The position numbers and the translations under genes were made by a program. From assembly GCA_015179125.1 (NCBI GenBank), contig WHVA01000140.1, positions 124,001 through 188,000 of the forward strand: 64,000 nt of DNA. The letters are read 5' to 3'. Source of the DNA: Gautieria morchelliformis. Its lineage: Eukaryota > Basidiomycota > Agaricomycetes > Gomphales > Gomphaceae. The notes under the pieces are model-generated. The model worked only from the letters and a program-made list of their open reading frames with translations. It was not told the DNA's origin and searched no databases. Position 1 is the stretch's first letter. Each line of letters starts with the position of its first letter. Shown piece after piece: positions 21,218-60,625 of this stretch.

Positions 21218-22822
21218 ATGTCCACCGCGCATATCCACGAGAGATACAAGCTCATCACGCGTGGAGTTGAGGAGGTCCTGGGAGGAGACACTATTCAAAA
21301 CCTGTTGAAGGATGGCAAGACACCAAAGTGTTACTGGGGTGCGGTGTCAGTGTCTGCTTGGATTCTTTTGATTTAACATGTCATGGGGCGTGGCAGGAAC
21401 GGCACCTACTGGAAGGCGTAAGCTCTTTCATTTTTACTGCTGTATTGGGGTTCACCCAGGTTTTTCACCAGCACACATTGGTTATTTTGTGCCACTGATT
21501 AAGATCGGGGACTTCTTGCGTGCAGGAGTCGAGGTTTCCAGGTTTCACCTGCATTTTTGTAGTCACTCACCTTGGCTTTCTCATAGGTCACTATTCTGTT
21601 GGCAGGTATGCTTACATGGTTTCGCGTCGTGCATACCCTTCACTTGTGTTCGGGCTATGTCAGATGTTCATGCCTTTTTGGACAACCTTAAGGCGCCCTT
21701 GGCTCTGGTTGAACATCGCACAAGGTACTACGAGCATTGTCTCCGCGCTGTCTTTACTTCTCTCTCCATCCCTGTCTCCAAACTTCGCTTCGTGCAAGGC
21801 TCAAGCTACCAGCTTTCCCGTGAGTACAACATGGACAACTACAAACTTTGCGCTACTGTCACCGAGCATGATGCGAAGAAGGCTGGTGCCGAGATTGTGG
21901 AACAGGTCGACAGTCCACTATTGAGTGGTCTACTTTACCCTGGTCTACAGGCTCTCGATGAGCAGTACCTAGACGTCGACTTCCAGTTTGGAGGTGTAGA
22001 TCAGGTGTGTTCCCTTTTTCAAGTCGATTTCTCTTCGTTAACATATCGCAATCTTCAGCGGAAAATCTTTACTTTCGCCGAGCTTTACCTCCCGCGTCTC
22101 GGCTATCGTAAGCGGGCTCACCTGATGAATGCTATGGTCCCGGGTCTTCAAGGGTCTAAAATGTCATCATCCGACCCCAATTCGAAGATTGACTTTCTAG
22201 ACCCGCCAGCCGTTGTTCGCCAAAAACTCAAAAAAGCTTTCTGTGAGCAGGGAAATATCACCGAGAATGGCGTACTCGCCTTCGTAGGGGCGGTGTTGAT
22301 TCCAGTAAGCGAACTACGATTGGAGCGTATGTTGGAAAGTCAGGGGCAGTATGATGGGCCGCAGCCTTTCAGAACACTGGACGCGCCAGAAACGACAGTC
22401 TTTAGCATTCCAAGAGATGATAAGCATGGTGGTCCAACACATTACCGGACATATGACGAGCTTGAGGCGGCCTTTAAGGCTAAGGAGGTACACCCTGGTG
22501 ATTTGAAGAAGGCCGTGGCGGATGGGATTGTGGAGCTGTTGGAACCTGTGCAGAAAACCTTCCAGCAGAGTGAGGAGTGGCAGAATGTAGCCGAACTAGC
22601 GTATCCACCCGATGTCAAGGAAGTGAAGAAAAAAAAGGTTTGCACTATATACTCATCTAGTTTAGGTGTCAATTGACATGACGTCTTGTACAGGAAAAGG
22701 TATATACTCCGCCACCCCCTGGCAAAGGAAAGAACTCAAGGCCGAATCAGCCTGTAGATACAACAGACCCGAATGGTCACGTCCCACCAGCAACCGCCAT
22801 TATCACAGATCCCCGACTCTGA
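21218..22822 (+). CDS. TYS1: tyrosyl-tRNA synthetase, cytosolic
   Basis: Seven exons: 21218-21338, 21397-21417, 21472-21533, 21587-21605, 21664-22004, 22059-22637 and 22694-22822. They join in frame to 423 residues. It charges tRNA-Tyr in the cytosol by the class I mechanism. The HIGH-type motif is in TAPTGRPHIGYF, split by an intron; the tyrosine pocket is in FVQGSSYQLS and YPGLQALDEQYLDVDFQFGG; the KMSKS-type motif is GSKMSSSDPNSKID. The C-terminal part and Lys-rich, Pro-rich tail (EVKKKKEKVYTPPPPGKGK) fit the fungal eukaryotic type without an added EMAP domain. Two exons are only 21 and 19 nt. The start is the first Met before HIHERYKLITR. It appears intact. Confidence 0.93.
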
Positions 22823-32093: not shown

Positions 32094-32171
32094 CGTTAGG
32101 TGAGAGCGCCTCTCCCTACGGTTGTAGGGTGAGTTCGAGGACGAGTCACGGGACGACTCGTCCTCCTGGCT

Positions 32172-32661
32172 TCAATGAGCCAGGTTGGGCTTCGGTGCCC
32201 GGGTGATCCTGCTCGCCCGTGGCCCCTTGTCCTTGTTCGTCGATCCGTCATCATCGAATGAGACCTTGCCCGTGGGGATCACTTCGTTCCCCTTGCGGAT
32301 CGTCCCTGGGCTCGAGAAGTCCAGGGTTATGCCGAATCTCCTTAGGAACGGTGTCCCTAAGATAGCGTCGTAATATTTGTTCGTATGTCTCACAACCAAA
32401 TTTGATGGTCATGTTCGTTCCATAGTTGATCGTGGAACGGCTGCCTATGCAGGCTAGCTGCAGCATGATTGGCTGCTCCAGGGAGAATGTCTTCATCCCT
32501 GTAGCTCGCGTGAATTCGGGGGATAGCAGTACCCCTTCGCTGCCGCTATCTAGCAGGCAGTGGGCTTTTATGCCATTTATTTCCCAGTACCCCGATAGGG
32601 TACGGTTCTCACTGCGTGGGCGCGTTGGCCACGTCCTGTGTTTGCTTCGGTGGTGATACAC
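32172..32661 (-). mobile_element. H2 retropepsin region
   Basis: Aspartic protease region with the active-site block CLLDSGSEGVLLSPEFTRA and the downstream YYDAILGTPFLRRFGITLDF block. It lies between the gag zinc knuckle and the reverse transcriptase. Confidence 0.75.
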
Positions 32662-33009
32662 CGGCTAGGCTGCCTTGTCTGGCGTGACCGACGTGCGTGC
32701 CGCCATGACTTTCGTGGCGGTTTTGTCCTCCGGTGAGAATCTGATCGCGCTGGACCTGTAGGTGGTGTCTTCCACCTCCTCGTCCCATTCATAGTATTGG
32801 GATGGCTCGGGGTCCCACTCTTCAGTGGGCGCGTCTCCATTGTCTGGAGTGTCGTTGGGTTGGGGATCACCCTCCCCTCTTCATCAATTTGATGGAGAGA
32901 ATTTTGACCGAGATGCATCTCCGGATCTTCGGTCTCCTCTTCGTGCCTTGCGGCCACTGTCCTGATACTGGACTTAAGCCGGGGGCATTCTGCCCTCTTG
33001 TGGCCAGGT

Positions 33010-35277
33010 TGGCCGCATTCGAAGCACGTGGTGCTGCTTTGGCCGCTGCTGGGCCGATCGTTAGGTCGGCCTGACGCCTTCGCCGGTGGGGCAGGTCATG
33101 GGGACAACCCTGATGCTTGAGGATGTTTAGCTTCAGGCGGGCATCCAGCTTGTGCTGGGCGTGGGGGCGGCAGCTGTTGTCCTGTTCCGCTTCTTGAGAA
33201 CAGGCTGGGCCTGGTCAGGCCTGTTTGTGTCAACGGCTTGCTCCCTGTGAGCCGGGCAGCGCTTGCCGTTGCTGCTGCGCTTTCTGCGTGGCGCATCCCC
33301 ATGTTGTATCGGGATGCCTCCTCGATCATCCGGGTCATCTCGAAGAGTTGCTCTATTGAGCTGCTCTCGGCATTATAGCCCTTTTTGAGGAATTCGTTGC
33401 GCAGCGTTTCGCGCAGCACCGACACAAACCGTCTCCGGAACGTGTAATCATCTGGCGGCTGTATCATACGTGCCGCGTATTTCGTGAGCTCGTTCAGCAT
33501 CTCCTGAACGGTTTTCATGCCCTGCATGACCGCGTTGAATTTATTCGATGTGTGATGGTACGTCAGTGTGTGCAGGAACCTCTTTTGAAGGCCCTGCATC
33601 ACCGTTTCCAGTGTCCAGCTTGCGGACCTGGAGATTGAAGCGTTCAACGTTTCAAAGGAACCATTCCTGGGCTTTGCGGGTGAGGCGAGTGCCCACGTAG
33701 CCGACCTGCATGTCTATGCTGGTTGGCCCTAGGAGGCAGTTCATTTTCAGCCATCGTAAGATGGCTGCTACGAAGATCTCAAACTCTTCAAGGTCAGATC
33801 CCCCGGCATATGGCTCGGGGTGAGCCAATTTCATGCCGGCTTTCGCTAGCACAGACTTCTCCAGGTCTGTGTGTGCGGCGTCTGCTAACGCCACGCGGAT
33901 CATCCATGTGATCCCGTCGTACAGCTCCATTGGTACGACGTCGGCCTGGTCAGGGATTCCCTGGCCTTCCGTTGGGGCCATGGATTGCTCGTGCAGCTGT
34001 GACGCCGTGTGGGGCAGGCTGTTGTATGCCCTGACGGGCCCCGGGCCCGGATCGGGCTCGGGATCGGGAGCATTTTGTGCTCTCGGTTCCGGGGGCGTTT
34101 TGTGCCTGGTGTCCCCGGTCAGTCCCGCGTTGTGGATCCGCAGCCTGCTGTTGTAGGCTGTGCGCGCCTGCGGTGCGTCCTGTACGGCTCGCGTGAGCTG
34201 CTCGTCGGGCAGCTGAGCGGTGTGGCTGTGGGCCACTGTTTCTTCAGCGTTCTTCGCTAGTAGCTCGAGGCCCGCGTATGGCGGCGCGCGGCTGCGGCTT
34301 CTTTACGCTGCCAGTGTGCGACTTCGAGCTCTAAGCTCTCGGTCGTCGTTTCAGAGTCAGGCTCTGATGCGACCTGTTCCCTGACGATCTGCTGGATCAT
34401 CTTATGGCTGTCCGTTGGGGCAGCCGGTTGCTCTTGAGGTTCATTCCTGAACCTTACGTCCTGTTTGACCGGGATGGCTGGCGGCAGCATTCGCTGCTGT
34501 CCCACTCCTTTCGGCGCGGGTCTTCCGCGTTGTGACCGCGTTCGTTGGCTGCGGACTGTCGCGAGCTCGGACGTGTTGTGTTGCATTCCCCGCGTGGGGG
34601 AGGGCTTCTGGACGTCCTCTAGAGTGGCTGCATCTTGCAGCCTGATCTCCTCCGCCTGGTGGAGTTCCTTGCCGATTGCCATTAGGGCGGCGGCGCGTTG
34701 TCAAGCTGCTATGCCAGCTGATCGTGCTTGTGGTGTGTCAGCATGCTTCGGTGCAGCGCAGCCTGCACCTGTTTGTTCAGGGCCTCTGCCGGCTCGTGGT
34801 CGATGGCGTGAGCCCTCGATCTCTTGCGACTGGAGCTCGAGTATTCCGAGCCCTGACGATCATCTGGGGCTCATCTTTTTTGCCGTCGTCCCCCTTCAGG
34901 GACGATCGTCGTTGCTCTACTTCATGAGCGTTGGTTCGAGTCGTGGCTTTGTGCCCGCCTTGACGTTGTTGCTCTACCGTCTGACGAGCGAGACTTCTCT
35001 GCCCTTTCCTTTGTCTCTGGGCAGAGAGGAATGGGGGGGCGTGCCGGCTCGTTGCCCGCGTCGTCTCTTCCTCGGCCATGCTCGATGAGATGTGGTCGGG
35101 GTTTTCCTCGTCCTCTACTGGGGGGACGAGGGCGGTGAGATCTACGATCTCTCTGTCTTCTATCGTCCTGGACTCTTGGTCCAGGGTAGCGTCAGCCGTC
35201 GTGTCGCTGGGCTGTGCCTGGGGCGTGGATCGCGAGCTCATCGCTCGTGTCCGTCTTCGACTGCGTGGAATCATCAT
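33010..35277 (-). mobile_element. H2 gag region
   Basis: Capsid-like region (about 33096-34236) with AGGSDLEEFEIFVAAILRWL and MQGLQKRFLHTLTYHHTSNK, a flexible Pro/Gln-rich N-terminal part to about 35277, and a CCHC knuckle (CFECGQPGHKRAECP) near 33010-33060. Part of the N-terminal region (34374-34560) is about 85% identical to H3 at 50948-51130, which ties the two elements together. Confidence 0.7.
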
Positions 35278-35415
35278 GCTCGCAGCCGACAGTAGAAGGT
35301 CTACTGGAGGGTCTCAACGATGTTTAGTCGTCGATGCAGCGATCTTTTTTCAAGATTGCTTCAAATCCACATCGGTTGGTCGCGTGGCGATCAACCGCAG
35401 GATAGTTCAAAAAGG

Positions 35416-35629
35416 TGTAAAGATGTCGATCTTAGGACCTTGTATCACAAGGGCACTGCAGAACTTGACCAATGAGTGGTATTCTGAATGCTACGTAGTG
35501 ACAGGTAAGAGTAAGATGCGATGGGAACTGCTGGCCGGTTCCCACGCATAAACTATACAGTGGGTCCCTAAGGGGCCCACTGGGATTATGTAATAACTAT
35601 TGTACAAGTAGATACATAGGTTATTTACA
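35416..35629 (-). repeat. H2 5' LTR
   Basis: A 214-bp LTR from TGTAAAGATG to ATTTACA, about 95% identical to the H1 LTR. The outer flank is atcat. Confidence 0.8.
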
Positions 35630-36229: not shown

Positions 36230-37900
36230 CATTGAGTAACTTGATGAACTTGACGCTGAGCTCATGCAAGCTGAGCGCGAGGTCGACGAGTGATGGAAGG
36301 TGTTGATGGAGAAACGTCGACTTGCATAGGAGCGCAAGGAACAGGAGGCGCAGGCCGAAGCTGCGTGAAAAGCTGAAGAGGCACAAAAAGCCGAGGAAGT
36401 GCGGAAAGCTTCTGAGACGTGGGAAGCTGAGAAGAGGCCTTTACAGGTGAAAGCCGAGGAGGCTCAGAAAGCACGGGGGCTGGCATCCGAATGTGAGTGA
36501 CTACAACTTTTCGCTATATTGGAAGCTGAAAAGATCCAACAAGCCAACATGAACCAAAACTTTCACATCCCGTCGCCTGAGCCAGTGGTTGTAGATTTGG
36601 CAGTAGGACAAGCTTGGATTTTAGCTGCAAAGCATGCGCTGAACGGAGTGTGGCTAAGGCAATGCCAAAGGCCTTGGGAATGAAGAAGAGGAAAGCAACC
36701 GAGGAGTCAGATGAGGAGGAGTTGGATGAAGAGGTAAGTCCTTGGGTCAGAGCGGTTCGGTTTTTGACTTATGTTAGCAACTCAGGGGCTATGGCAGGGA
36801 AGGTTCGGTTGAGTTCTTAGAAAGCTAGAATCAAATACACTCTCTCAGTGAATTTATTGTCACTGATATATTAATACAAGACCTAGAATCAAATACACTA
36901 CATGATTTTCAGTCAACATGCTATGTAAATATGAAAGATACTACTCGCCTCTCTCAGTGAATTTATTGTCACTGAGAGAGGAGTACAATCCTGTCTCAGA
37001 AGGCATATACATGCACCCGGCCCTTTAGCGCCCAAGGGCTCGCGCGTTGAAGTCATTTCAAACTCCGCTGGGTGCAGCCGCCTGTGAAAATAGAAATAAC
37101 AGAATGAAATGGAGAGGTAGGGAGTGACTGGAAAATTTCGAAAATAAACAGAGAAGTGAATGCATGGTACAAGAACAATGTGAGAAGAGATTGAAACACC
37201 ACACAATAAATCGAACATATTATGCTTGATTTTGGTGCAGGAGCATAAATGCACCCAACAACTTATGCTTTCTTGCTTCAGTGTGAACCTTGGCGTCGCA
37301 ATACCCAGTGTCTGCATGGGAAGAAGACCACGTGCCAGCAATGCGTGGACGGGAAAGTCCGGTGTAGCTTCCTGGACAGGAAGTGGAAATGCAAGGATGA
37401 GGAGGGAACCGCAGGGCCGGGGCCAAAGAAGGCCAAGGTTGCTTCAGTCAAGCCATTGGGAGCCATACTGATGGATATTCTGGAGCCGAGGTGTCCGGCA
37501 TGTTGAGGGACTAACTCTCCCAACAAAACCAGCAACTGGAGTGAAGCAATCACTTGCTTCGGGGTGTGTTGAATTTTGTGCAGCGAATTGAGCAGCACAA
37601 TTCCCAGATGAACAAGCGGTTATGCTTGTGGACCATGGCAGCAGAGAATGCTGCCTTGTGGTTGGGTTCGGATTCAGGTTGGGGCAGGTTTGATTTGGCT
37701 GGGGTTCGGGTTCGGGAAGTGGAGAAAGAGAGAAAGAGACAGAGGGAAAAGAGAAAGGGAAAGAAAAAGAGATAGAGGGAAGAGTGGAGAAGGGATCGGG
37801 ATCAGGTTCGGAGGATGGGGATGAGGATGTGGGAAGGATGAGGGACAGGGGTTCAGGAGATGAGTGGGATTCAAGTCACAATGGTGGACTTGTAGTTGGG
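36230..37900 (+). pseudogene. decayed opposite-strand accessory gene of GyB
   Basis: Plus-strand coding pieces: a Glu/Lys/Ala-rich coiled coil (KAEEAQKAEEVRKASETWEA) at about 36370-36490, a basic and acidic stretch (MKKRKATEESDEEELDEE) at 36680-36733, then after an intron-like gap a cysteine cluster (CEPWRRNTQC, CQQCVDGKVRC, about 37282-37400), and a second helical part ending in a Lys/Arg run (37554-37775). The composition matches the GyA gene at 28777-29625. The intron (GTAAGT at 36734 to a CTTCAG acceptor near 37281) holds a Copia solo LTR. It is broken. Confidence 0.45.
36772..37260 (-). repeat. Co1-family solo LTR
   Basis: A 489-bp LTR from TGTTAGCAAC to GCACCCAACA, related to the Co1 LTRs but clearly diverged, so older. 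It is flanked by a perfect 5-bp duplication, actta (36767-36771 and 37261-37265). No internal sequence is left. It lies within the intron of the GyB accessory gene. Confidence 0.85.
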
Positions 37901-39710: not shown

Positions 39711-40207
39711 TGTAGTAGACAGGAATTATAGGCAGTAGGTATGGACTTGTTGCTCAAAAGAATAGACTAGAAATTAATTCACTCTCTCAGTGAATTTAGT
39801 TGTCACTATAAATATATTATACACTACCTAGAAATTAATTCACTACAGAGCATTTCTAGGTCAATAAATCGAAGGAACACTAGACTAATTTACTTGCCTC
39901 TCTCAGTGAATTTAGTTGTCACTGAGAGAGGGGGAAATCTGTCTCACTGTGCATGCACTACTACCGGCCCTTTAGCGCCCAAGAGCTCGCGCATTGAAGT
40001 CATTTCAGACTCCGCTGGGTGCAGCCGCCTGTGAAAGTAGAAATAACAAGATGAAATGGAGAGGTAGGGAGTGACTGGAAAACTTCGAAAATTATCAAAG
40101 AAATGGATGCATGGTACAAGAACAATGTGAGAAGAGATTGAAAAATCATACAACAAATTGAATATGTTATGCTTGATTTTGGTGCAGGAGCATAAATGCA
40201 CCCAACA
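39711..40207 (-). repeat. Co1 3' LTR
   Basis: From TGTAGTAGACAGG to GCACCCAACA, preceded on the minus strand by a purine tract. It contains the inverted words CTCTCTCAGTGA and TCACTGAGAGAG (about 39898-39930), which can pair in the transcript. Confidence 0.92.
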
Positions 40208-44178: not shown

Positions 44179-44675
44179 TGTAGTAGACAGGAATTATAGG
44201 CAGTAGGTATGGACTTGTTGCTCAAAAGAATAGACTAGAAATTAATTCACTCTCTCAGTGAACTTAGTTGTCACTATAAATATATTATACACTACCTAGA
44301 AATTAATTCACTACAGAGCATTTCTAGGTCAATAAATCGAAGGAACACTAGACTAATTTACTTGCCTCTCTCAGTGAATTTAGTTGTCACTGAGAGAGGG
44401 GGAAATATGTCTCACTGTGCATGTACTACTACCGGCCCTTTAGCGCCCAAGAGCTCGCGCGTCGAAGTCATTTCAGACTCCGCTGGGTGTAGCCGCCTGT
44501 GAAAGTAGAAATAACAAAATGAAATGGAGAGGTAGGGAGTGACTGGAAAACTTCGAAAATTATCAAAGAAATGGATGCATGGTACAAGAACAATGTGAGA
44601 AGAGATTGAAAAATCATACAACAAATTGAATATATTATGCTTGATTTTGGTGCAGGAGCATAAATGCACCCAACA
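44179..44675 (-). repeat. Co1 5' LTR
   Basis: Same length and ends as the 3' LTR, about 98.4% identical by eye. The right outer flank is tctat, matching the left flank of the element. Confidence 0.92.
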
Positions 44676-48205: not shown

Positions 48206-48295
48206 TTTTCTTTCTTTATTAGTTTCTTTTGTATATAAATGATTTAAAATAGAATAATTGCATTTATGACAACATAGATAACACTACATTCTTAT

Positions 48296-48637
48296 CACTA
48301 GGTGCAACTCACTGGTTGTTTACCATAGCTGACAGCAATAAATAGTGAAAAAAAGAGGAAATCTGGTAATAATTTGAAACTATGGCAAATGGTGAAGAAT
48401 TCTTCCTTTTTTTTAAAAACATTTATGTAAGACATCAAGAAAATAAAGGCAAATAATTATTTCTTGTAAATGTTGATGTTGATCTGGTTTTATTCAGATT
48501 TTCTTGATGCTTTAAATTGTAAAAAAGGAAGGATTCTTCACCATTTGCCATAGTTTCAAATTATTACCAGATTTCCTCTTTTTTTCACTATTTGTTGCTG
48601 GAGGTTACATTAAACAAACAGTGACTTGTACCTAGTG
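48296..48637. mobile_element. foldback MITE-like element, copy 1
   Basis: A 342-bp element that is almost wholly an inverted repeat: the left arm starts CACTAGGTGCAA and continues through AAGAGGAAATCTGGTAATAA, and the right arm is its reverse complement, ending GTACCTAGTG. The arms are about 140 bp. It is flanked by TA on both sides if the element starts one base earlier, as in Tc1/mariner-type insertions. It has no coding capacity. Confidence 0.75.
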
Positions 48638-48716
48638 TAAGTTCACAAGGACTTGATCTACAAATACTGACCCACAAAATGCGGTGAATGGGACAAACAT
48701 CACTATCACTAGGTGC

Positions 48717-49077
48717 AAGTCACTGTTTGTTTACCATAACCCACAGCAGTAAAAAAAGAGGAAATCTGGTAATAATTTGAAACTATGGGAAATGGTGAAG
48801 AAGTCTTTTTTTTTTTTTACAATTTAAGGCATCAAGAAAGTCTGAATAAAGGCAAATAATTATTTCTTGCCTCTTATGCAGCAAATATGATTTATTTTGT
48901 CACAATTTATTTCTTATAAATGTTCATCTGGTTTTATTTTTTTGATGTTTTAAATTGTAAACAAAAAGGAAGGATTCCTTACCATTTGCCATAGCTTCAA
49001 ATTATTACCAGATTTCCTCTTTTGTCACTATTTGGTGCTGTAGGTTACAGTAAACAAACAGTGACTTGCACATAATG
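48717..49077. mobile_element. foldback MITE-like element, copy 2
   Basis: A 361-bp close relative of the element at 48296-48637, in the same orientation and only 79 bp away. The right end is altered (cataatg instead of cctagtg). The centre has an extra AT-rich stretch (48870-48930). Two such copies side by side suggest tandem insertion or duplication. Confidence 0.75.
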
Positions 49078-49273
49078 TATTCAAATATTAATGTTCAGGG
49101 ATCTCCTGGTCCAACTAGACTTAGGAGTGATGACCAGCCTACTTCATTCAAGCCTCGAGCTTCCACCTGATCGTTGTACATCACACAGAACGAGAAACAG
49201 AAATATCGCCTTGAATCTTGTAGTCATGAAAAAGTAAAGGCATATATGCCCCATGGTGCACACATCTAGTACA

Positions 49274-50060
49274 CTACGTCCACAAAAACTCGATCATCTC
49301 CAGATCATGGTCCGTTGTGATTAGCGCGCCATCGTACGCATCGCGAGGCCGTCTGACCCCCACACAATTCACATTATGTGGATATCGTACCTCTCCAATT
49401 TCTCCTGTCCAGTCAAAGTCAATTAACATGATCTTGTTTGTTCCCTTTCCCTTCGGCACCATAAAATTTGTTGACCGAATGTCTCCATGTACAAATCCTG
49501 CATCATGGAGTTGATGCACACACCGTCGGATTTCTGTTTCAAACTTGGATCTGTCTGATGGGGGAACCTTGTCCAGCCGTTCATAGGCATCCTCATCAAT
49601 CAGGTCCATGACGACCATGAACCATCCACCCTCGATGTGTTGAAAGCCTCTCAGAGCTGGGGCGAATCCCAGTGACGAGCATTTCGTATGCGCATCTTTT
49701 GAATACCGACGGGTAAACTTGATGAATATGTTGTCTTCTCCTGACCGCCCACGGAAGAGCAATTTGTTTTCAAGGCGCTGTTCATAATTGAACAAACAAT
49801 GGCGTGAATCCGAGAGAGAGGTGTATTGATGTGGGTGTGGGAACACAGGTGCTGGTGGGTTGTCATCCTTCGGAGGCATGTCGACGTCCATTTCCATAGC
49901 TTCATCCAGATAAAAGGCTTCCAGTTCCCAGATGGCCTTCCTGTAGCACCAAAATAACACGCGGTTCTCACCTGCATATCCCAGTCGGTTGCATGGTAGA
50001 AGAGGGGCAAGACAGGCGCAAGGACTTGTAGATTGGGGTAATCAGACCAAACGGCACCCG
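49274..50060 (-). pseudogene. fungal kinase-like protein, 3' part
   Basis: The minus strand reads WSDYPNLQVLAPVLPLFYHA, a short intron-like gap (about 49940-49975), then an open frame to the stop at 49274. Kinase marks: a strand with FMVVMDLIDEDAYERL (hinge), the catalytic loop FVHGDIRSTNFMV (H-G-D...N) and the metal-binding IDFDWTG in place of DFG. This is the kinase-like family common in Agaricomycetes; its targets are unknown. The 5' part lies at 59252-59619: removing H3 and one caaag copy restores the host reading frame (GF-A-GAVWSD). The gene is interrupted in this genome. Confidence 0.7.
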
Positions 50061-50065
50061 CAAAG

Positions 50066-50257
50066 TGTAAAGATGTCTATCTTAAGCCTTAGGTCACAAG
50101 AGCACAACAGAACTTGACCAATGTGTGGTATTCTGATGCTACGTAGTGACAGTGTAAGGGTTAGATGCGATGAAGCTGGGGAACCGCCGGCGGTTCCCAC
50201 GCACTACTATACAGTGGGGTCTTGTGGACCCCCCCCCTCTGAATCCACTTCTTTACA
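50066..50257 (-). repeat. H3 3' LTR
   Basis: 192 bp from TGTAAAGATG to CTTTACA. It contains the perfect 20-bp palindrome GGGAACCGCCGGCGGTTCCC at 50178-50197, which the H1 and H2 LTRs lack. Confidence 0.8.
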
Positions 50258-50339
50258 CCCTCCCCTTCTAGAAGGAACCCACCGGGTGAGCCAAAAGAAG
50301 CGCCCCTTTGACCTTGAGAAAGGGATGGGTGTGTGGACC

Positions 50340-50920
50340 AGGTCATTCCGATGTACCTCAGAATAACCGCAGATCTGATGCCTCAGATCTGACATGAATG
50401 GCATGATGTCATGACATGGCATCATGGCAGATGTGTTGGCATAGTGCTAACACATCTGTTCTGGTGTTCATCATTCTGAACACCAGTGGTTGTGCCAGCT
50501 TCGCCGGCACTCCCCAGTTGTAGTGGGTGGTTGGTTGGTTTGGGGGCATGGTTCTTCCCCCTCTGAACCGAAACCCACGGTTGAGAACAACTTGAATGCT
50601 CTCAAACCCACAGACAGATGATGTCTGTGGGGAACTGAACAGCCAATGATCTAGGCATCATTGGTGCCTAACTGCGAAGGATAGCAGTTATGCAGCCATA
50701 GGACCTGGCAGGGCCCTATGCAAGGAATAACCAAGCGGTCAATAATTGACTGCTTTGTGACATGATGTCACCCGTAGGACTCGGAGGAGCCCTATGCAAT
50801 GAAATTACCGAAGCGGTCAATACTTGACCACTTCATGGCCGAACAGGCCAGTGGCTGCATACAGCCGCTGGGCATTGTGTCCATGGACCTGGACACAACG
50901 GATGTGCATTTGTGTGCACG
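50340..50920. repeat. run of distinct perfect stem-loops in H3
   Basis: Consecutive, unrelated perfect inverted repeats: ATGTCATGACAT (50406-50417); CAGATGTGTT/AACACATCTG (50428-50458); CTGGTGTTCA/TGAACACCAG (50461-50486); CCCACAGACA/TGTCTGTGGG (50607-50631); CCAATGAT/ATCATTGG (50643-50664); TAACTGC/GCAGTTA (50669-50690); GTCAAT/ATTGAC (50738-50750); TTGTGTCC/GGACACAA (50875-50898). Stems of 8-10 bp at this density are far beyond chance. Confidence 0.85.
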
Positions 50921-51189
50921 CCAGGCATGTGATGCAGGCAGAGGCACACTTTCTGACGATCTGTTGGATCATCTTGCAGCTGTCCATGGGGGCAACCGGT
51001 TGCTCTTGAGGTTCATTCCCGAACCTTACGTCCTGTTCGACCGGGACGGCTGGCGGCGGCATTCGCCGCTTGTCCCGCTCCTTTCGGCGTGGGTCTTCCA
51101 CGTCATGACAGCATTCGTTATCTGCGGACTGTCGCGCACTAATGGCGGTGGCTCCGCAGGGGGCCGGCAATGCAGCGGTTGCGACATAT

Positions 51190-52180
51190 GCCGCAACTGG
51201 GAGCTTCTGGGGACCTTTGGTGGGTCCCCAGGTGCGGATGCATGCCCCTTGGGGCGTGACGCACCCTCCCCCCTTGACAGGAGGGAGCATGGTGGCCGGG
51301 ACCACCTCTGGGCCCGCGCGTGAACGCTGACACGGCGGTGGGCGGGCCCTGGCATCCGGCAGGGAGCCCCAGCAGCCTGGGTGTCTGCTGGGGACCCGGT
51401 GCGCCGCGTGGCACCCGCCGCTGATGGGGGCGGGCCTGCATGCGGCCGCGAGCGAGGGCGGGCGGAGCGGCGCTGCGGGCGCGGCTTTCGCGGTGCCCGG
51501 CGGCCTCTGGGGGCCCCTTGAGGGCTCCCAGCGGTGGGTGCATGTCCTTTGGGACGTGCAGCCCCGTTCCCGCTCGCTGGGAACGAGCGGGGCAGCCAGG
51601 GCGCGACGTGCGCGACATCTGGGCGGCTCTGGGGACCTCTGGAGGGTCCCCAGAGGTGGATGCATGCTCTACAGAGCGTGCACCACCGTTCCCGCTCGCT
51701 CCCAGCGAGCGGGGCGGCCAGGATGGTGCCTGGGGCCGCGCGTGACCGGGGATGATGCTGCGCGGCATGCACGGTGTCTGGCTGACTCTGGGGGCCTCTG
51801 GAGGGCCCCCAGAGGTGGATGCATGCTCCAAGGAGCATGCACCACCGTTCCCACTCGCTGGGAACAAGCAGGGTGGCCCCTGGGGCCGCAGGCGAGGGTG
51901 GATGGCCGCGGGCGCCAGGCGCCGCGTTCGCGACATTTGGCCGGTTCTGGGGGCCTCTGGAGGGCCCCCAGAGGTGGATGCATGCTCCAGGGAGCATGCA
52001 CCACCGTTCCCATTCGCTGGGAACGAGCGGGGCGGCTGGTATGGCACCTGGGGCCCGCAGATGACGCTGCGCGGTGAAGGCAGCTTACGCGGGTCCTTCG
52101 CAGCTCTGGGGGGCTCCTGGGGGTTCCCCAGGGTGGATGGACACACCTTGGAGCGTGTGCCGTCGTCCGTGTGCGCCTGG
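51190..52180 (-). repeat. tandem array of about 150-bp hairpin units in H3
   Basis: Units recur at about 51200, 51350, 51497, 51636, 51786, 51949 and 52105 (spacing about 140-165 bp). Typical units hold up to three hairpins: a CTCTGGGGGCCT...AGGGCCCCCAGAG stem, a GCATGCTCC...GGAGCATGC stem and a CCGCTCG...CGAGCGG stem. Minus-strand reading gives a repeated peptide (EHASTSGGPPEAPR) open for up to 373 residues (51139-52260), but two frames are equally open, so coding is doubtful. Confidence 0.75.
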
Positions 52181-52268
52181 GGCAACCTAGAGCGTGGATG
52201 CGCGGTGTGGGCGGTGGAGGCGGCGTCGATGAGTGCAGCGTCACGTCGCACATCATGCACAGTGTGGC

Positions 52269-52633
52269 TGTGAGGGCAACACTAATGACGAAGCCACAAC
52301 CAAAGATACTCAAGGAGATAAGAGCCGATACTAGGACAATGACCAACTGTGTAGTGGGTATCCTCAGTTTATAACTCTACCAACGATAGATACATGGGGA
52401 CTTGCCTGTGTAGTGGGTATCCTCAGAGATCAAGCTGAGGAAACACCACCACACGGGCTACAGTCTTATAGCGCCGGCAAGGCTTACATAATAGGGGAGA
52501 CGGAAACTTGTAGAAGGTTACGGAATGTGACGGAATGTGACATGTGACGGAATGTTATGGAAACTGACGGAAGGTAACGGAAACTCATGGAAGGAAATAG
52601 AAACTTGTGGAAGGAAATGCGTGAACCCTGACA
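52269..52633 (-). repeat. Gy3 3' LTR
   Basis: Bounded by TGTGAGGGC and CCCTGACA; followed by the purine tract (AGAGGGGGGTGA on the minus strand) shared with Gy1. It carries tandem tgacggaa units. Confidence 0.92.
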
Positions 52634-52686
52634 TCACCCCCCTCTCAATGCTTGTCGTCCCGACAAGCACAGCTGCCACCTAGCCC

Positions 52687-53241
52687 TCAACATCCACCGA
52701 GACATCGTTTCCAAGTATGCCACAGGCGGGACCACCATCTCTCCTGGCCCTTCCCTTCCTGGTAACGCAGGTCAATGATGAGCTCAGGGGGATTGGGGTC
52801 CATGGGCAAGTGCGGCCCTCGGAACCTTGCTCGACGTATTCGCTCTCCTGCCATGTTACGGAAACGCCGCCCCATCCAGCCTTCGAAAGTGTAGGGAGTT
52901 CCACAAGGGGGGGTTCCATCGTAGAGGAAGACAGGGTCGCCGACGTAGTACGTGTTCTCTCGTCTGTGTCGGGGTCTGAGGAATGCGAGTGCAGGGCGAG
53001 TGGGCGCCTGACTCTCCGCTGGTGTGAGGTCCTCAGAGCTGACGGACCACTTTGAAGACCATGCGACGTCGAGATCACAGCAGTCAAGCATCCTTTGTAG
53101 CTTGGCTTCACTGGCTGCTCTGGATGACGAGAAGCCGGAGAAGTGCAGGAGGGTGGGATCGACACGTGACATGTTTGGCAGGTCAGAGAGGTTTTGGGTG
53201 AAGCTGGGGAGGGCAACTAGCTCAATGGCGGGCGAGGACAT
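52687..53241 (-). CDS. Gy3 accessory ORF of unknown function
   Basis: A 184-residue ORF between the pol stop and the 3' LTR, same strand as pol. It opens MSSPAIELVALPSFTQNLSD, has a C-terminal Trp/Arg-rich part (GWMGRRFRNMAGERIRRARF) and an acidic/aliphatic strand (PPELIIDLRYQEG). No domain is recognised, and there is no signal peptide or membrane span. A TATA box (53300-53308) lies about 60 bp upstream with a pyrimidine-rich leader, like a host promoter. Gy1 has no counterpart. Confidence 0.5.
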   Translation of the reverse strand: MSSPAIELVALPSFTQNLSDLPNMSRVDPTLLHFSGFSSSRAASEAKLQRMLDCCDLDVAWSSKWSVSSEDLTPAESQAPTRPALAFLRPRHRRENTYYVGDPVFLYDGTPPCGTPYTFEGWMGRRFRNMAGERIRRARFRGPHLPMDPNPPELIIDLRYQEGKGQERWWSRLWHTWKRCLGGC

Positions 53242-53299
53242 GGTTGATGGATGTGGTGGGGTCGATGCAGTGGAAGTGAGCGGTCACAGGTGGAGAGGG

Positions 53300-53308
53300 G
53301 ATATATAG
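53300..53308 (-). promoter_or_regulatory. TATA box of the Gy3 accessory ORF
   Basis: The minus strand reads GCTATATATCCCC, then a C/T-rich leader (ctctccacctgtgaccgctc), then ATG at 53241. The spacing of about 60 bp suits a basidiomycete RNA polymerase II promoter. Confidence 0.45.
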
Positions 53309-53347
53309 CTTATCGGAATGAATTGGTTAGGCGGAGGCCGATATCAC

Positions 53348-54556
53348 TTATCTTTGGGGTTCTGGACCCTTGACATCATAAGTAGAAGCCCTGCCTGCTG
53401 TCCAGTCGAAGAGAGTTTGCCTGGAAGGTTCTGTGAAGTTCTGAAATCTCTGGAAGGGGAGGGACATATATGTGGCTGCTGAGATACACTGAGGTTCCTC
53501 TGGGTTCTGCCGGTGAAATTCTTTCACGAGTCGCTTTGCCCCAGAGACATCTTTCGCTGGTAGCCAGAGATTGTCGGCAGCTCCATAGCCCTTCCAGCGC
53601 ATGAGATACTCCAACCTTCCACGGAACATCCTGCTGTCTAGAATCCTTTCAACTTCATATTCTTCGGCTCCATCCCGTATGACAGGGGGGGGGGGGGGTG
53701 GAGGGGCATGACGTTCAAGGATTGGGTCATCTTCATATAGCCGAAGCAGGACGACAGAGAACACTGGATGTGTGCGACCAAAGGATGTAGGAAGATTTAG
53801 ACCATAGGCATTTCGTGAGACCACCTTATTAACAGTGTAGGGGCCTAGCCACTTGTTGTCTAGCTTCTTCATTGGGCGAGTGGTTGTGATGTTTTGTGCA
53901 TTGAGCCAGACCTTGTCACCAAGCTTATAAACTGGGGCTGCTTTATGGTGCACGTCATAGAAGCGTGCCATGTCCTCTGCTGCCTTGGACAGGGCCGAAC
54001 GAGCTTCTCTTGTGGCCGCTTCCATCCGTGTTGTGAACTCATCCAGGGCCTCGAGTCGAGTTTCCCAGACTGGTTCCAGTCCCAGCCTTGGATGTTGGCC
54101 ACTGTCCAACATGAAGGGTGTAGTCTGGGTTGAGGCATGGATTCGGTTGTTATAGGCAAACTCGGCCAAGGATATCCATTCAAACCAATCATCCTGACGC
54201 TGGTTGACGAATAGTCGAAGGTATTGCTCAATCTCCTGATTAACCCTTTCAGTCTGTCCATCAGTTTGGGGGTGATAAGCAGTAGATGCAGCGACTTTGA
54301 CACCAAGAAGTTTGTTCAGTTCACGCATGAACTGGGAGATGAACTGTGTGCCTCGATCACTGATGATTTCTTCAAGGAGCCCATGAAGTTTCCAAACATG
54401 ATCACGGAAGAGTCGGGCAACTCCCACCGAAGTTACATCTGAAGTGGTGGGAATGACATGTGCACGCTTTGAGAGGCGATCAACGACAACAAGGAGAGCA
54501 TCATAGCCATGACTGGTAGGCAGTTCTACGATCAAGTGGTTTTTGTCCGGTTGCAC
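53348..54556 (-). mobile_element. Gy3 integrase core and chromodomain
   Basis: Integrase core: VELPTSHGYDALLVVVDRLS, SDRGTQFISQFMRELN, AYHPQTDGQTERVNQEIEQY; C-terminal module DKVWLNAQNITTTRPMKKLD; chromodomain YEVERILDSRMFRGR then LMRWKGYGAADNLWLP. Confidence 0.9.
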
Positions 54557-56454
54557 AGGTCACAGGCCTTCACGTATTTTGCAATGTAACGTCCCATCCC
54601 AGGCCACCAGTAACTCCGAGCAACTAGTTCAGTGGTTCTCCAACGACCAGGGTGACCGGTGAGAGGCATGTCATGGTGCGCTTTCACTATGTCAGGTCGT
54701 AGTTTTGCATCAAGCGGCACGTACACTTTGTTGTGATAGAGGACAAGCCCATCCTGTTCAGACCACTCTTCTCCTCGTAAATTTCCAGAGGAGCCCAGTT
54801 CTTTGAGAGCCTTGACAACCTTTTCATCCTGGTCTACACAGTTCCTTACTCGATTGAGGAAAGCATCACCTTCACCTGGGACTAACTGCGCACCAGCCTC
54901 TGGAGGATTCGCCTTGATGTGGAACAAGTCAGGGGTAAGTAAGACTTGATTTTGGTTGTCTTCCGCCCCCCGCTTATGATCCACGCGTCGTGAGAGTGCA
55001 TCAGGCTTGGCTGAATGACGACCAGGACGATGGATCAGCTCAAAATCAAAGCGAGAGAGGTAGAGTGACCAGCGTGCTTGACGACAGTTCAGGTTTTGTG
55101 CAGTGCGGAAGTAGGTGAGATTCTGATGGTCATTGAGAATCTCAATCTTGTGCTTTGTTCCCTCTAAGATGTGGCCCCATTCCTCTAATCCCCGAATCAC
55201 AGAAAGAAGCTCCTTGTCATGGATGGCATAGTTGCGTTCAGCATCATTGAGGCTTTTGGAGACAAACCCCACAGGCCGCCATTTGCCATCATCACATAGC
55301 TGGGACAGTACTGCTCCTGTGGCATAGGCTGAGGCATCTGTTTCAAGACGGAAATGTTTGTCTTGATCAGGGAGGACAAGGATCGGTGTTGAGGTGATGA
55401 GGAGTTTGAGCTTGTCGAAGGACATTTGCTCTGGGCCATTTGGATCCCAAGACCATTGGGCATCCTGTTTTGTCAACTGGTTGAGGGGCTTTGCAATGTG
55501 TGAGAAGTCTTCCACAAATCTACAGTAGAAGTTGATGAAACCAAGGAATGATTTGACTTCAGTGACGTTACGTGGTATTGGCCAGTCCCGCACCCCTGCA
55601 ACCTTGACTGGGTCCATGGCAACCTGTCCTTGAGAGAGGATGAGGCCGAGATACTCCACCTCTAGTTGCTCAAATAGGCATTTTTCAGGTTTGAGGTACA
55701 GGTTGTTGTCCCGGAGGATTTCAAGGACACGTCGTACAATCCTACGATGTTCTTCAAGCGACTCTGTGAAGATGAGAATGTCGTCCATGAACACCACCAC
55801 AACCCCTTCATCGATGAGACTCTTGAAGATGTCATTCATCATCGTCTAGAAGGTTGCTGGGCTGTTCGTGAGTCCAAAGAACATGACTAGAGGTTCATAC
55901 AGGCCCCTATTTGTCCGAAAGGCTGCCTTCCACTCATCTCCCTCTTTTATGCGTACATTATTATATCCCCAGCGAATGTCAAGCTTTGTGAAGTATTTAG
56001 CCCTTCCAGCAGCAATCTTATTCATGATGTCTGGAACAAGGGGCAAAGGATAGGCATTCTTGATTGTTATATCATTGAGCTTCCGGTAGTCTTGCACAAA
56101 TCTAAGACTGCCGTCCTTTTTCTTCACAAAGAAGACTGGAGATGCCATAGGTGACTTGGAAGGACGGATACGATGGCTCTTCAGGTTCTCCTCAAGGAAG
56201 TTATCCAGTTCCCTTTGCTCAACCGGTGACATTGGGTAAACCTTTGTGCTGAAGGGTTGTGCACCTGGAGTGAGCTCAATTGCATGGTCCCAGGGCTTTT
56301 GAGGAGGCAGTTGGTCAAATGACTCCTTAGAAAACACATCCTTGAACTCCTGGTATGGTTTGGGGACAAGGTCCTCGAAGGATCTGACTGGTGCAGACTT
56401 GCTGTGCTGCTGCTCAAGCCCTTGCGCCCTCAGTACCTCACAGTGTCCCTCCAT
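54532..56454 (-). mobile_element. Gy3 reverse transcriptase, RNase H, integrase zinc finger
   Basis: Reverse transcriptase: [40 protein letters not shown], catalytic VVFMDDILIFTE. RNase H: LETDASAYATGAVLSQLCDD, NYAIHDKELLSVIRGLEEW. Integrase zinc finger: HHDMPLTGHPGRWRTTEL then CDLCNRTKTT. Confidence 0.9.
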
Positions 56455-58159
56455 CTACTCGCTCTATCAAAGCAGCGGAACCGGAGAAGTTCAATGGAGA
56501 CCGTGCAGAGACTGAAGGGTTTATCAGGTCTATCAGATTGTCCATCGCTGTCCAGCCGGCATCCTTCCCAGATGAGCGCACAAAGATCCTATATGCTCTT
56601 TCCTTCATGACAGGAGGCTCTGCGGAGATATGGGCACACAACGAGACACAGGCTGTCATTGATGGCACCTCCTCTATATCCACTCTGGAGGGGTTAATTA
56701 AACGTGTGGAGGAGGCCTTTGGTGACCCAGATCGTGCCAGAACGGCTCGCACTAAACTGCATGACCTTAGGATGGCGTCAGGAATGTCGGCAGATGAATA
56801 CACGGCTCAATTTGAGATCCTGGCAGGCAGGACAGGCTTTAATGATGAGGCACTCGAGGATGCCTATGCTCGTGGCCTTCCAGCAGGTATCCTTGATAAG
56901 ATCCACGCCCAGCCCTTTCTTCCATCCAACCTCAAAGCCTGGAATGAAGCAGCCTGTCAGATTGACCGCAATCATCGCCGTCTGTTAGAGGTCAGGAAGG
57001 CACAGACACCTCATGTCCCTAATCGCCCTCCTCCTGCCCGTCCACTCCACACTCCTGCTACGGCTCCTGTTGTCACAGCACCACCCAGTAATGTGACGCC
57101 TATGGACATTGACTCATCCCACCGCCGCACCGAAACACGGACCTGCTACAACTGTAAGAGACCTGGTCACATTTCACCAGACTGTCCTGAACCTCGCAAG
57201 CCACGAATCCGCGCAAACCTCACAGAGGCAGACATTGCAGCAATTGTCTCTAAATATGTGGCAGCGGCGATAGAGGAACGCAAACAGAAGGTGGAAGCCC
57301 CTGTCCAAGATGAAGGAAAGGGTTTTTAGGCCAGTCAGCGGTGAAAGACATGCCCCGCTCGACGAATCGGTTTTCAGTTCTCGAAACATGTACAATAGGG
57401 ATCACAGGCGATATGATGCATCCTTCTCCTATCCCTGATCGAACTGAAACCAAACCAGCCATGCCAAAAACCCAACCCATCGCTCCAGTTGCTAATGCAA
57501 ACCTTCCAGTCCCTCTATATGTCCGTACTGCTGACCTCCGCCGATGCACCAAAGTACCTCTCAAGGTCCACTCCGTTGACACAGGGCATCCACTTGCAAT
57601 TGACTCCCTCCTTGACAGTGGTGCTACAGGGATGTTCATCGATGTGGAGTTTGTAAGGGAACACAGACTTCGGACCCGTCCCCTACCCCATGCCATCCCC
57701 GTCTACAATATTGATGGTACCCCAAATGAGGCTGGCTCAATCAAGGAAGAAGTTGACCTCATTTGCACCTTTGGGGATCATACGGAACGTGCCACATTCT
57801 CCATCACGAGCCTTGGACGACTTGCCATCATTCTTGGTCACACATGGCTTGTTGAACACAACCCAGAAGTTGACTGGCGTATAGGAGATGTGAAGATGAC
57901 ACGCTGTCCCAAGTCATGTGGGGGCAGACCTGTTGTCAGAGGGCCCACAGTCGAAACTGTTCCAGAAGAGAGTGTAGATCAAGAGGAGGTTCCCATACAG
58001 CACACCCGCTCCCTACTTGAGGAAGGAGACAGGACCTTTGTCATCTTTGTGAATGAGAGTCCTGAAATGATTGGCGCAGGCTGGACTGTCTCCCAACAGC
58101 TTGCTGAACGGGCACAGCAGCGTTGGCGGCAGCATTCGCTAAGTGGTTGTGAATGTTAA
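56391..58159 (+). mobile_element. Gy3 gag and protease part (plus strand)
   Basis: gag (about 56391-57329) with TGGSAEIWAHNETQ and the CCHC knuckle CYNCKRPGHISPDCP; retropepsin (57341-58159) with DSLLDSGATGMFIDVEFV and LAIILGHTWLVEHNPEVDW. It reads on the plus strand, opposite to the pol part and the LTRs of the same element. Confidence 0.88.
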
Positions 58160-58355
58160 CAATCTGACTGTGCAGTTCCTGATTCTGCAGTTGAAGTTGC
58201 TGCAGCTGCTGTGCTTGGCTGGAAAGGAGGCCTCGAAGAAATGGCCCATGGTCACCCAGGGAGTCCCAGTATGCGTCTGGGAGTTGGTCTGCCATAGGCT
58301 GAGATGAAGGCTGGTTAAGAAAAGTGTGTGGGGTCGTCCTATGAGCTTGATCTTC

Positions 58356-58730
58356 TGTGAGGGCAACACTAATGACGAAGCCACAACCAAAGATACTCAA
58401 GGAGATAAGAGCTGATACTAGGACAATGACCAACTGTGTAGTGGGTATCCTCAGTTTATAACTCTACCAACGATAGATACATGGGGACTTGCCTGTGTAG
58501 TGGGTATCCTCAGAGATCAAGCTGAGGAAACACCACCACACGGGCTACAGTCTTATAGCGCTGGCAAGGCTTACATAATAGGGGAGACGGAAACTTGTAG
58601 AAGGTTACGGAAGGTGACGGAATGTGACATGTGACAGAATGTGACGGAATGTTATGGAAACTGACGGAAGGTAACGGAAACTCATGGAAGGAAATAGAAA
58701 CTTGTGGAAGGAAATGCGTGAACCCTGACA
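58356..58730 (-). repeat. Gy3 5' LTR
   Basis: 375 bp with the same ends as its partner, longer by one short repeat unit. The start of gag (58041-58300, minus, Gln-rich N-terminus) follows. Confidence 0.92.
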
Positions 58731-59072
58731 GTGGCCGACCTGTCTGGCCGGCTGCTGGAAGGCCTGAGGGTGCTGGAGGTGCTGTGGCGCGTGGATGCGT
58801 CCCAGAGGGACGCCATCGCGTTCGTCCATGGCCCTGCAGAGGCTTTGCCAACGCTCCTCGCTGGCCTCTGCCCAGAACCACGCCTCGCTGGGCGTCATCT
58901 CGCACGCCTTCACCCAGCGAGTGAGCCGTCCCTTCCTCCTCTCCATCATCGAGTCCAACTCGGACTCGGAATATTCCCACGATGAAAACATTGCGGCGAC
59001 AGTGTTCTCAACGGCGAACCGCCGTCTGCACTGCCGTCTTTTTTTAAAAGACTGCAGAAGGTTCAAGAGTGG
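58731..59072 (-). mobile_element. H3 5' internal part
   Basis: The minus strand is open from 59066 (RRQCRRRFAVENTVAAMFSS, then WVKACEMTPSEAWFWAEASE), probably the beginning of an H3 gag-like frame. It also holds perfect hairpins such as GCGTCCC/GGGACGC (about 58796-58812). Confidence 0.5.
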
Positions 59073-59246
59073 CTTGATACCTGTTTATCACAAGGGCACA
59101 CTGAATTCAACCAGTTTGTGGTAATTCAGATGCTACGTAGTGATGGTGACAGGTAAATATTAAGCTGGGGAACCGCCGGCGGTTCCCACACACTACTATA
59201 CAGTGGGGTCTTGTGGACCCCCCCCCTCTGAATCCACTTCTTTACA
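59073..59246 (-). repeat. H3 5' LTR
   Basis: The right part is almost identical to 50178-50257, including the 20-bp palindrome (59168-59187); the left part is clearly diverged, so the left edge is approximate. Confidence 0.7.
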
Positions 59247-59251
59247 CAAAG

Positions 59252-59619
59252 CCAACGTGAGCGCCTGCCTGTGGATTATGAACCTGTCCAAACTGACATT
59301 TGTAATGGACCTCACCAGCAATGTACATTATAAAACATGGAAGATTGGTGTGACTTGAGAGTATTCGTTTGTTGAAGGCTCTGTAGTAGCAGCCTGCTTG
59401 AAAAAGAGGATCAGATGGGGATGACCCAAGCTCGGACTTGACTTCTAAGATTGCAAGACAGAAGTGTTTGCAACGGTTGTCTCCATCTGTTTTGAATAAA
59501 TAAATCATGGAAGGATTGAACTGAACGCCATATGATGCAAAGAGCATCCCTCGGGCCTCACGTGCCCTGTCGCCCTCCGTCGGATAGAATTCCGACATCT
59601 TGGATGAAAATTGCATCAC
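59252..59619 (-). pseudogene. fungal kinase-like protein, 5' part
   Basis: Minus-strand frame ending at H3. It contains FYPTEGDRAREARGMLFASY, AILEVKSELGSSPSDPLFQA and CYYRAFNKRI, matching the N-terminal region seen in this Agaricomycete kinase-like family (an E-x-K-E-x-G-x2-S-x-DP-x2-Q block precedes the kinase domain). The frame is open a little further up, to about 59655 (IPTKEDHEF), so more upstream exons are expected but not found. It continues at 50060 on the other side of H3. Confidence 0.65.
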
Positions 59620-59659
59620 AAATTCATGGTCCTCCTTTGTGGGTATGTGTCATGACCGG

Positions 59660-60625
59660 TTTATTTCTCCTACCGCGCTACCTCCATGTTCCCCCTCGTC
59701 ACTCCCTAGCATCTTCGTCAGAGTTCGCCGCACCTACCGACCACTCCTCCTCTACGTCTACTCTACTCGCTGTTCGCCCCATCCTCCGAACCGCTATTCA
59801 CTACTTGCGCATTTCGCCAGCAGGCACGCCATCAAATATGATCGATACCAATCACCCGGCATGATGGTCCATCATTAGCCCCATCACCTTCTTAATCCAA
59901 CCCCATTGGGTGTTCATATGGCCAATGCATGTTCGCAGGGCATCCCTTCCATAGGTCGTACGGGATCAACCCAGTAGACCAAGAGTCCGTGCAGGGTAGC
60001 ATGTATGCGGGTCCCAAGACATGGTTTTGTCCATAAGTGCCTTCGCCCCCTTTTACTCTCCGTCGTTTCATGTTCGCATTCTTCCCTCACTCTATTGTAT
60101 GTTTATTCCATCTCCTTAGTATCATGACTGCGCACCCCTATCCAACCCTGACTCGTGACGGCCTCTTTCCTATTCGCTGATACCGTACGAGTATTTGATA
60201 TAAGTAGTTTACATTCGCATGTATATTCCCCAGTTCAATTATCATACGTCGTCCATCTTGTGCAAACTTGACCTCACTGTGATCATCGTCTTAAGCCTTC
60301 TCTTGGAGACTTCTATCTTTGACCAGCAGAGGACTTAGGCATCACTGGTGAGTTCTCATACTTCATCTTCGTTACCTTAGCCTTCGAACCATTTTCTGTG
60401 CTGTGGGCGAAGGGATTGTCGAGACTTAGACAGCCCTTCCGTGACACCTTGCATGTCACATCGTCAAGAGCCACGGGCTATTTCGCTACGACTGTAGATA
60501 GGGCGAGCCCCGTTTAGGCAAAACCCTCTTACCTTGTGAACATTCATTGGTTCACCTATTCGCTGAACGGCATACTTATTCGCACAAGTTAATCGGGCAT
60601 TCGCTGTGTTCACTAATACACGATA
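59660..60625. other. intergenic, pyrimidine-rich
   Basis: No gene is seen. Composition is C/T-rich on the plus strand. It may include the promoter and first exons of the interrupted kinase-like gene, which I could not resolve. Confidence 0.35.

Follow-up and report, generated by a model that had tools for sequence, protein, structure and literature searches.

Whether perfect hairpins arise by mutation or by selection is an open question that has usually been approached through rare events in single genes. The retroelement H3, which lies in the 64-kb stretch of DNA analyzed here (the window), raises this question through the perfect stem-loops along its body. The reading that we favor, with a confidence just short of even, is that H3 is a non-autonomous member of a Ty3/gypsy family that is rich in perfect inverted repeats throughout, and that the cause is mutational, namely template switching between hairpin arms. 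While the element is copied, most likely by its own reverse transcription, the growing strand would jump from one arm to the other and back; the arms would come out perfect and the loop at times inverted, and perfect hairpins would build up as the cycles repeat. The relevant features of the window are listed below; here and in the other copies, target duplications, LTR ends, R-U5 types and the CpG context of paired positions in tandem units were judged by eye from the sequence.

1861-2390, minus strand: fragment of the coding (helper) family, with an LTR at 1861-2074 (R-U5 type 2b), a polypurine tract and the stretch upstream of the tract
21378-22676: tyrosyl-tRNA synthetase gene of the host, whose product is 81% identical to the G. 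morchelliformis enzyme, in keeping with a basidiomycete host near Gautieria
30358-35629, minus strand: incomplete, hairpin-rich copy of the helper, with its 5′ LTR at 35417-35629, gag, protease, reverse transcriptase (RT) and RNase H
50066-59246, minus strand: H3, interrupted by Gy3, with the target duplication CAAAG on both sides (CAAAG/TGTAAAG ... CTTTACA/CAAAG)
50066-50257, minus strand: sense-3′ LTR of H3, whose R-U5 half (the low part, to about 50170) is of helper type 1
50258-50269, minus strand: polypurine tract of H3, AGAAGGGGAGGG in the sense direction, before the sense-3′ LTR and the same beside this LTR in most copies
50370-50898: nine perfect hairpins of unrelated sequence, with stems of 7-10 and loops of 1-11
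50973-51140, minus strand: remnant of the helper's first ORF within H3, 77% at the amino acid level over residues 120-175
51178-52055: five tandem units with recurring hairpins, at spacings of 300, 122, 159 and 159
51600-51737: tandem unit whose hairpin at 51691-51713 has the loop CCC, where most units have GGG
52269-58730, minus strand: Gy3, a Ty3/gypsy element that inserted later and splits H3, with the target duplication GTGGC
59060-59246 (low end approximate), minus strand: sense-5′ LTR of H3, with a U3 like that of the 3′ LTR and an R-U5 of another type

The sense strand of H3 is the minus strand, since part of its body is common with the coding element on that strand and its purine tract reads as a polypurine tract there. 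With the sense set in this way, the shared U3 agrees with an LTR element, as does the polypurine tract, and so a reading of H3 as a DNA transposon was dropped. H3 is a non-coding, non-autonomous LTR element: it has a pair of LTRs, a target duplication and no recognized coding capacity, and two sense ORFs, out of three ORFs with at least 250 amino acids, gave no match when scanned against Pfam. In the 122-Mb genome, 74 pieces match H3 among the 40 scored of 840 candidates, several of them covering most of the query at 84-94% identity. Other copies are flanked by 5-base target duplications of their own, such as GGACC (L009), GAGGT (L011) and CGCTG (L015), and the same hairpins are present in insertions bearing different target duplications. 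The first-pass annotation had called H3 a non-autonomous retroelement, and the LTR pair, the polypurine tract and the 5-base duplications bear this out.

Hairpins were defined as perfect stems of at least 7 bp with loops of at most 12 bases, and were compared with 30 dinucleotide shuffles of each stretch. The part of H3 between its LTR and Gy3 (50258-52268) contains 21 hairpins, compared with a shuffled mean of 2.3 and a maximum of 7; with stems of at least 8 bp there are 16 against 0.6 (maximum 2), and with stems of at least 10 bp nine against none. The stretch 50340-50920, which is free of the tandem array, has nine hairpins with stems of at least 7 bp against 0.63 and six with stems of at least 8 bp against 0.13. 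Five other 2-kb stretches of the window contain 2, 0, 0, 4 and 6 hairpins at the 7-bp threshold, the last of these (58000-60000) being an unclean control because the far end of H3 lies there. The mean z-score of RNA folding in H3 is −2.95 (13 windows of 150 bases, 30 shuffles each), compared with −0.41 in Gy1 (41 windows), +0.23 in Gy3 (36 windows), −1.26 in the copia element (31 windows), and −0.23 and −0.04 in two host stretches, all in 150-base windows. Chance or base composition as the source of the hairpins is ruled out by the dinucleotide shuffles, and identity with a known structured RNA or ribozyme by a search of 49900-52400 with the Rfam models, which gave no match at E≤1.

The hairpins of H3 had first been noticed from the sequence alone. 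The excess over shuffled sequence, together with the stronger folding than in Gy1 and copia, confirms that observation and runs counter to the condition under which it was to be refuted. At least eight stems of 6-10 bp had been reported in 50400-50900, where we count eight with stems of at least 7 bp and 11 with stems of at least 6 bp. The description of H3 as almost entirely built of stem-loops was too strong: depending on the threshold, the share of H3 that lies within hairpins is 25-38%, rising to 36-53% in the richest 500-580 bp. The statement that the hairpins share no consensus holds for the first half, and it is limited to that half because most hairpins of the second half copy those of a tandem unit. 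The first-half hairpins are unrelated in sequence, and an origin of all hairpins as copies of one MITE is ruled out, in agreement with the first-pass annotation.

H3 belongs with the coding Ty3/gypsy family present at 30358-35629, which probably moves the non-coding H3 and is therefore called the helper here. A complete helper copy, with some stop codons, is found at L051, where LTRs of 213 bp are flanked on both sides by the duplication TACAG, gag, protease, RT, RNase H and integrase follow one another and are followed by an extra ORF, and the polypurine tract AGAGGGGGAGGG precedes the 3′ LTR. In this copy zf-CCHC, RVT_1, Integrase_H2C2 and SH3_Tf2-1 score above the Pfam cut-off and Ty3_capsid, Retrotrans_gag, gag-asp_proteas and rve below it; RNase H is above the cut-off in the window copy. 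The domain order on one sense strand, together with the TG...CA LTRs, the short duplication and the polypurine tract, places the helper in Ty3/gypsy. The sequence after the helper LTR is CCTTTTTGAACTATCC, which does not start with TGG. The family is large, with 39 other places matching the RT region at 94-97% among the 40 scored, and at least 40 matches to the helper LTRs at 98-100%. The ORF after integrase (L051, 490-1332, minus strand), which lies in the kilobase of the helper where hairpins are densest, has no Pfam match above the cut-off and weak matches to coiled-coil-like families.

H3 is no exception among its kin, since the coding helper is equally hairpin-rich. Stretches of up to 1 kb in L051 contain 2-15 hairpins, compared with shuffled means of 0.3-0.9. 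When synonymous codons are shuffled so that protein and codon use are unchanged, the helper coding segments, including gag, RT and integrase, retain a mean of 6.3 hairpins against the 41 observed, and all six segments exceed their shuffles (each p≤0.04); seven control ORFs from Gy1, Gy3, copia and the host have 8 hairpins against 6.6, and none of the seven deviates at p<0.05. The excess in the helper coding sequence goes beyond codon and amino acid constraint. Across the window and 18 further loci, overlapping 500-bp windows of the family have a mean of 4.82 hairpins (n=217), compared with 0.44 in those without family matches (n=502), and among the sequences compared the excess is confined to the H3/helper family. 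Hairpin counts that allow A.C or G.U pairs are confounded by composition, and stems with one mismatch are too few for use. A divergent helper lineage, with RT and RNase H pieces 70-87% alike at the amino acid level, is also hairpin-rich, with partly different hairpins; it occurs in L025 (1495-2837 and 6407-8700), where an H3-like copy (duplication GAAGC) lies within it.

Template switching between hairpin arms can be recognized by a loop that is inverted while both arms are kept, and such loops are found in the family. In the RT region, a 12-bp stem (GAGGACGAGTCG/CGACTCGTCCTC) encloses the loop CGGGA in most copies; in the window copy of the helper (32137-32165), an 11-bp stem with one changed pair encloses the exact reverse complement. 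A genome-wide search allowing up to three mismatches found the loop inverted in 16 copies of about 479, one of them the window copy; there were 19 such hits, three of which were forward copies read from the opposite strand. The forward hits number 463, a few of which may likewise be opposite-strand readings, and the reversed-pattern control gave no hit. Many of these 16 dispersed copies carry the same derived bases, and so transposition probably spread the inversion. In the gag leader, the loop GTCACA has one inverted copy, which carries one further change, against 302 forward; a third loop reads TCAC in the main lineage and GTGA in the divergent one of L025. Of the 51 tandem units that keep the stem of the GGG loop, 43 have GGG and three have CCC, the latter belonging by our reading to two unit types; another tandem-unit loop is AA in 21 units and TT in 32.

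Strongly changed loops were defined as loops of at least four bases in which length and stem are kept and at least three positions are changed. Among close copies all three such loops are inversions, with reverse-complement matches of 5/5, 5/6 and 3/4, compared with 0, 1 and 0 for plain reversal and 3, 0 and 0 for plain complement; the weakest, AACC to GGTC, matches at three of four positions only. Between lineages, one of seven distinct strongly changed loops is an inversion. A shorter loop, TAG to CTG, is a partial inversion. Of the 98 tandem units, 95 have a listed loop in the first hairpin, and in none of these is that 7-base loop inverted; the loop GTGATG in L025 was disregarded as that row is misaligned. 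Inverted loops are the known footprint of template switching between hairpin arms, and they show that such switching happens in this family. An excerpt of PMC8604942 describes how switching between the arms of inverted repeats in yeast genes homogenizes the arms and inverts the spacers. Because the host DNA polymerase of yeast can invert loops, the agent of switching is not fixed by this footprint; we infer that it is the reverse transcriptase rather than a host polymerase.

The stems themselves tell less. Rewriting of one arm to match the other in clustered changes was not seen among close copies: a local reverse-complement template was present for 2 of 46 rows of clustered changes (two events being listed twice), compared with 15 of 341 controls. 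True stem partners changed together 12 times among close copies, against 10.3 expected from column frequencies, 8.8 from columns with the same trinucleotide and 5.9 from columns with the same base; row L025, which is misaligned beyond about column 690, was left out of these H3 counts. An interpretation of the 12 double changes as templated, based on an expectation of 1.65 under uniform rates, was withdrawn in view of these three control expectations. Mutation hotspots, such as CpG decay in symmetric stems, can explain these co-changes, and for this reason it is only by inference that the same jumps would have made the stems perfect or built the hairpins. Of the 23 compensatory pairs between two helper lineages (both reference directions counted), 17 fall on CpG sites. 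CpG decay alone can mimic such compensation, and these changes were not used as evidence of switching because most are at CpG. Only the tandem units show clear covariation outside CpG sites, and they do so in three of their four stems. The double-change cells of these three exceed every shuffle (44 vs. a maximum of 33, 101 vs. 56 and 21 vs. 11), but the shuffle ignores relatedness and few independent events stand behind the many rows; in the fourth stem there is no covariation (6 cells vs. a shuffled mean of 4.7). Three covarying pairs, non-CpG by our reading, are G-C in 51 and A-T in 42 of the 98 units, C-G in 73 and T-A in 24, and T-A in 61 and C-G in 36, with at most two exceptions each. 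Snap-back template switching, as proposed in the first-pass annotation, thus gains direct support from the inverted loops, but its turning of imperfect hairpins into perfect ones is not visible in the stems of close copies, and the compensatory change to be looked for in copies genome-wide appears in the tandem units, not among close copies, and between lineages mostly at CpG.

The same annotation had offered selection for a structured packaged RNA as the other source. In its wider form, the family RNA or single-stranded cDNA has been selected to fold into local hairpins, for packaging, dimerization or protection from silencing or deaminases, and loop inversions are a side effect of long perfect stems. 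This is a strong rival, although on balance we judge it unlikely. It accords with the non-CpG covariation in three of the four tandem stems and with the many hairpins kept between the two lineages, which by reference direction are 18/29 and 16/17 in the RT region (75% DNA identity), 4/7 and 4/5 in the RNase H region, and 9/23 and 7/19 in the integrase-ORF3 region (60% identity); counted from the main lineage, 11 of 29 hairpins in the RT region and 14 of 23 in the integrase-ORF3 region are not kept. It also accords with the slower change of H3 arms than of the rest (0.018 vs. 0.042), but the helper arms are hardly slower (0.021 vs. 0.025 and 0.034 vs. 0.036), and the fourth tandem stem and the neglect of relatedness weaken the covariation. 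Selection on the sense RNA would favor G.U over A.C pairs and a better fold of the sense strand; however, single-side changes between lineages gave 38 G.U and 55 A.C in the sense strand, the tandem units 59 and 106, and the fold z-score of the helper is equal on the two strands (−2.65 sense, −2.59 antisense). H3 alone leans toward the sense in its fold (−2.95 vs. −2.27), with the sense better in 11 of 13 windows. In addition, many helper hairpins (12 of 67) have loops of only 0-2 bases, and exact loop inversions are not predicted by selection.

A host DNA polymerase that switches templates after integration might instead keep pre-existing hairpins perfect with no part for the reverse transcriptase. 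We consider this improbable: the excerpt of PMC8604942 reports this footprint for yeast genes, and one inversion was found in a single genomic copy only, but no excess is seen in the other retroelements and the host DNA from this window and these loci, and the commonest inversion is common to 16 dispersed copies. Base composition, tandem repetition or assembly as an artefactual source of the hairpins is very improbable. A GC-rich tandem array occupies the second half of H3 and inflates the counts there; the first half, however, has its nine hairpins without such an array, the same hairpins are found again in insertions whose target duplications differ, and the codon-shuffled coding segments agree. 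Template switching between the arms therefore stays the reading that we prefer, with the strength given at the outset.

The LTRs of H3 are unequal. Within one copy of the H3 group, the LTRs share U3 and differ in R-U5, and are 86.1-89.9% alike (five pairs), and the LTR on the plus-strand left of each copy matches that of another copy at 96.4-100%. In the sister group, in which the primer-site-like CTTTTTTGAGATTCC is present, the two LTRs of one copy are 93.8-99.4% alike (six pairs). The likeness of 5′ and 3′ LTRs expected from one RNA is found in the sister group and not in the H3 group. All 12 sense-5′ LTRs compared, like that of H3 in the window, lack the CTTTACA end and the primer-site sequence of the helper, and they have one R-U5 type. 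All eight sense-3′ LTRs compared carry the helper R-U5, in three alleles.

Helper R-U5 type 1: sense-3′ LTRs of the window copy, L009 and L021
Helper R-U5 type 2a: sense-3′ LTRs of L010, L011 and L013
Helper R-U5 type 2b: sense-3′ LTRs of L014 and L026

Over the compared stretch, type 2a in L011 is identical to the helper LTRs of L045 and L047; type 2b in L014 is identical to the helper LTR at 1861-2074, and type 1 follows a helper-type U3 junction in 388 pattern matches. In alignment columns 440-625, the window copy (type 1) is nearest to L010 (type 2a) and L026 (type 2b) to L021 (type 1), and in columns 15-440 L010 and L013 (both type 2a) are nearest to each other, so that the R-U5 type follows the element body only partly. 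The simplest model for the asymmetry, which we judge slightly more likely than not, is that H3-group copies are completed with the strong-stop DNA of the helper. The minus-strand strong-stop DNA of the helper would jump to the H3 RNA, and the plus-strand strong-stop DNA would later pair through R, giving the element's own R-U5 at the 5′ end and the helper R-U5 at the 3′ end. The rival explanation is recombination in a few founders. If the model is true, the LTR asymmetry is a way for a parasite of retroelements to dispense with a primer site. A retrotransposon lineage with an RT given to switching between hairpin arms, whose genome thereby ratchets toward perfect hairpins even within genes, joined to a primer-site-less satellite that finishes each copy with helper strong-stop DNA, is a combination that we regard as possible but doubtful. 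In a sister-group copy (L018, 2013-2160, target duplication TATGG), the sense-5′ LTR is inverted and truncated and is followed by the primer-site-like sequence; it looks like a larger snap-back product.

Small non-autonomous LTR elements are named TRIM or LARD. H3 resembles this type in its short LTRs, lack of recognized coding capacity, target duplications and polypurine tract, and the H3 group differs from it in lacking the family primer-site sequence and in the systematic R-U5 difference between the two LTRs, of which the 3′ one has the helper type. The helper resembles other Ty3/gypsy elements in its CCHC-knuckle gag, protease, RT, RNase H and integrase in the usual order, its TG...CA LTRs, 5-base duplications and polypurine tract, and differs from them in the hairpin-rich coding region and the extra ORF after integrase. 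Some RNA viruses have genome-scale ordered RNA structure, with many local hairpins across the coding genome; the helper shares the many local hairpins, but its pairing is strand-symmetric and has no wobble signature in the sense strand. Excerpts of PMC8794818 state that template switching can create and maintain RNA hairpins, and that loop inversions are rare in RNA genes (rRNA, microRNA). The mutations described in the excerpts of PMC8604942 and PMC8794818 are like those seen here in the perfect arms and in the short loops inverted within kept stems, in coding sequence too. However, they are scattered single events in ordinary genes, with rare loop inversions, whereas here a transposon family is hairpin-rich from one LTR to the other, with reverse transcription as the probable route, and arm rewriting is not seen among close copies. 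The titles and abstract openings searched, a scope outside which most subscription journals lie, contained neither a hairpin-saturated retrotransposon family nor the use in trans of strong-stop DNA by a primer-less element. Since copies of the family number in the hundreds and each has dozens of hairpins, beside hairpin-poor retroelements in the same nucleus, the rate and agent of template switching could be measured in it.

Two further repeats of the window were observed. A 13-bp hairpin, CCTCTCTCAGTGA..TCACTGAGAGAGG, occurs around the copia element at 36948-36981, 39897-39931 and 44365-44399, and with a mismatch also in L051 near 5548 (sense), in a 360-base stretch matching the window near 36.9 kb. 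At 48286-49079 there are AT-rich nested inverted and direct repeats, the inverted arms of which are 65-117 bp long and 74-92% complementary.
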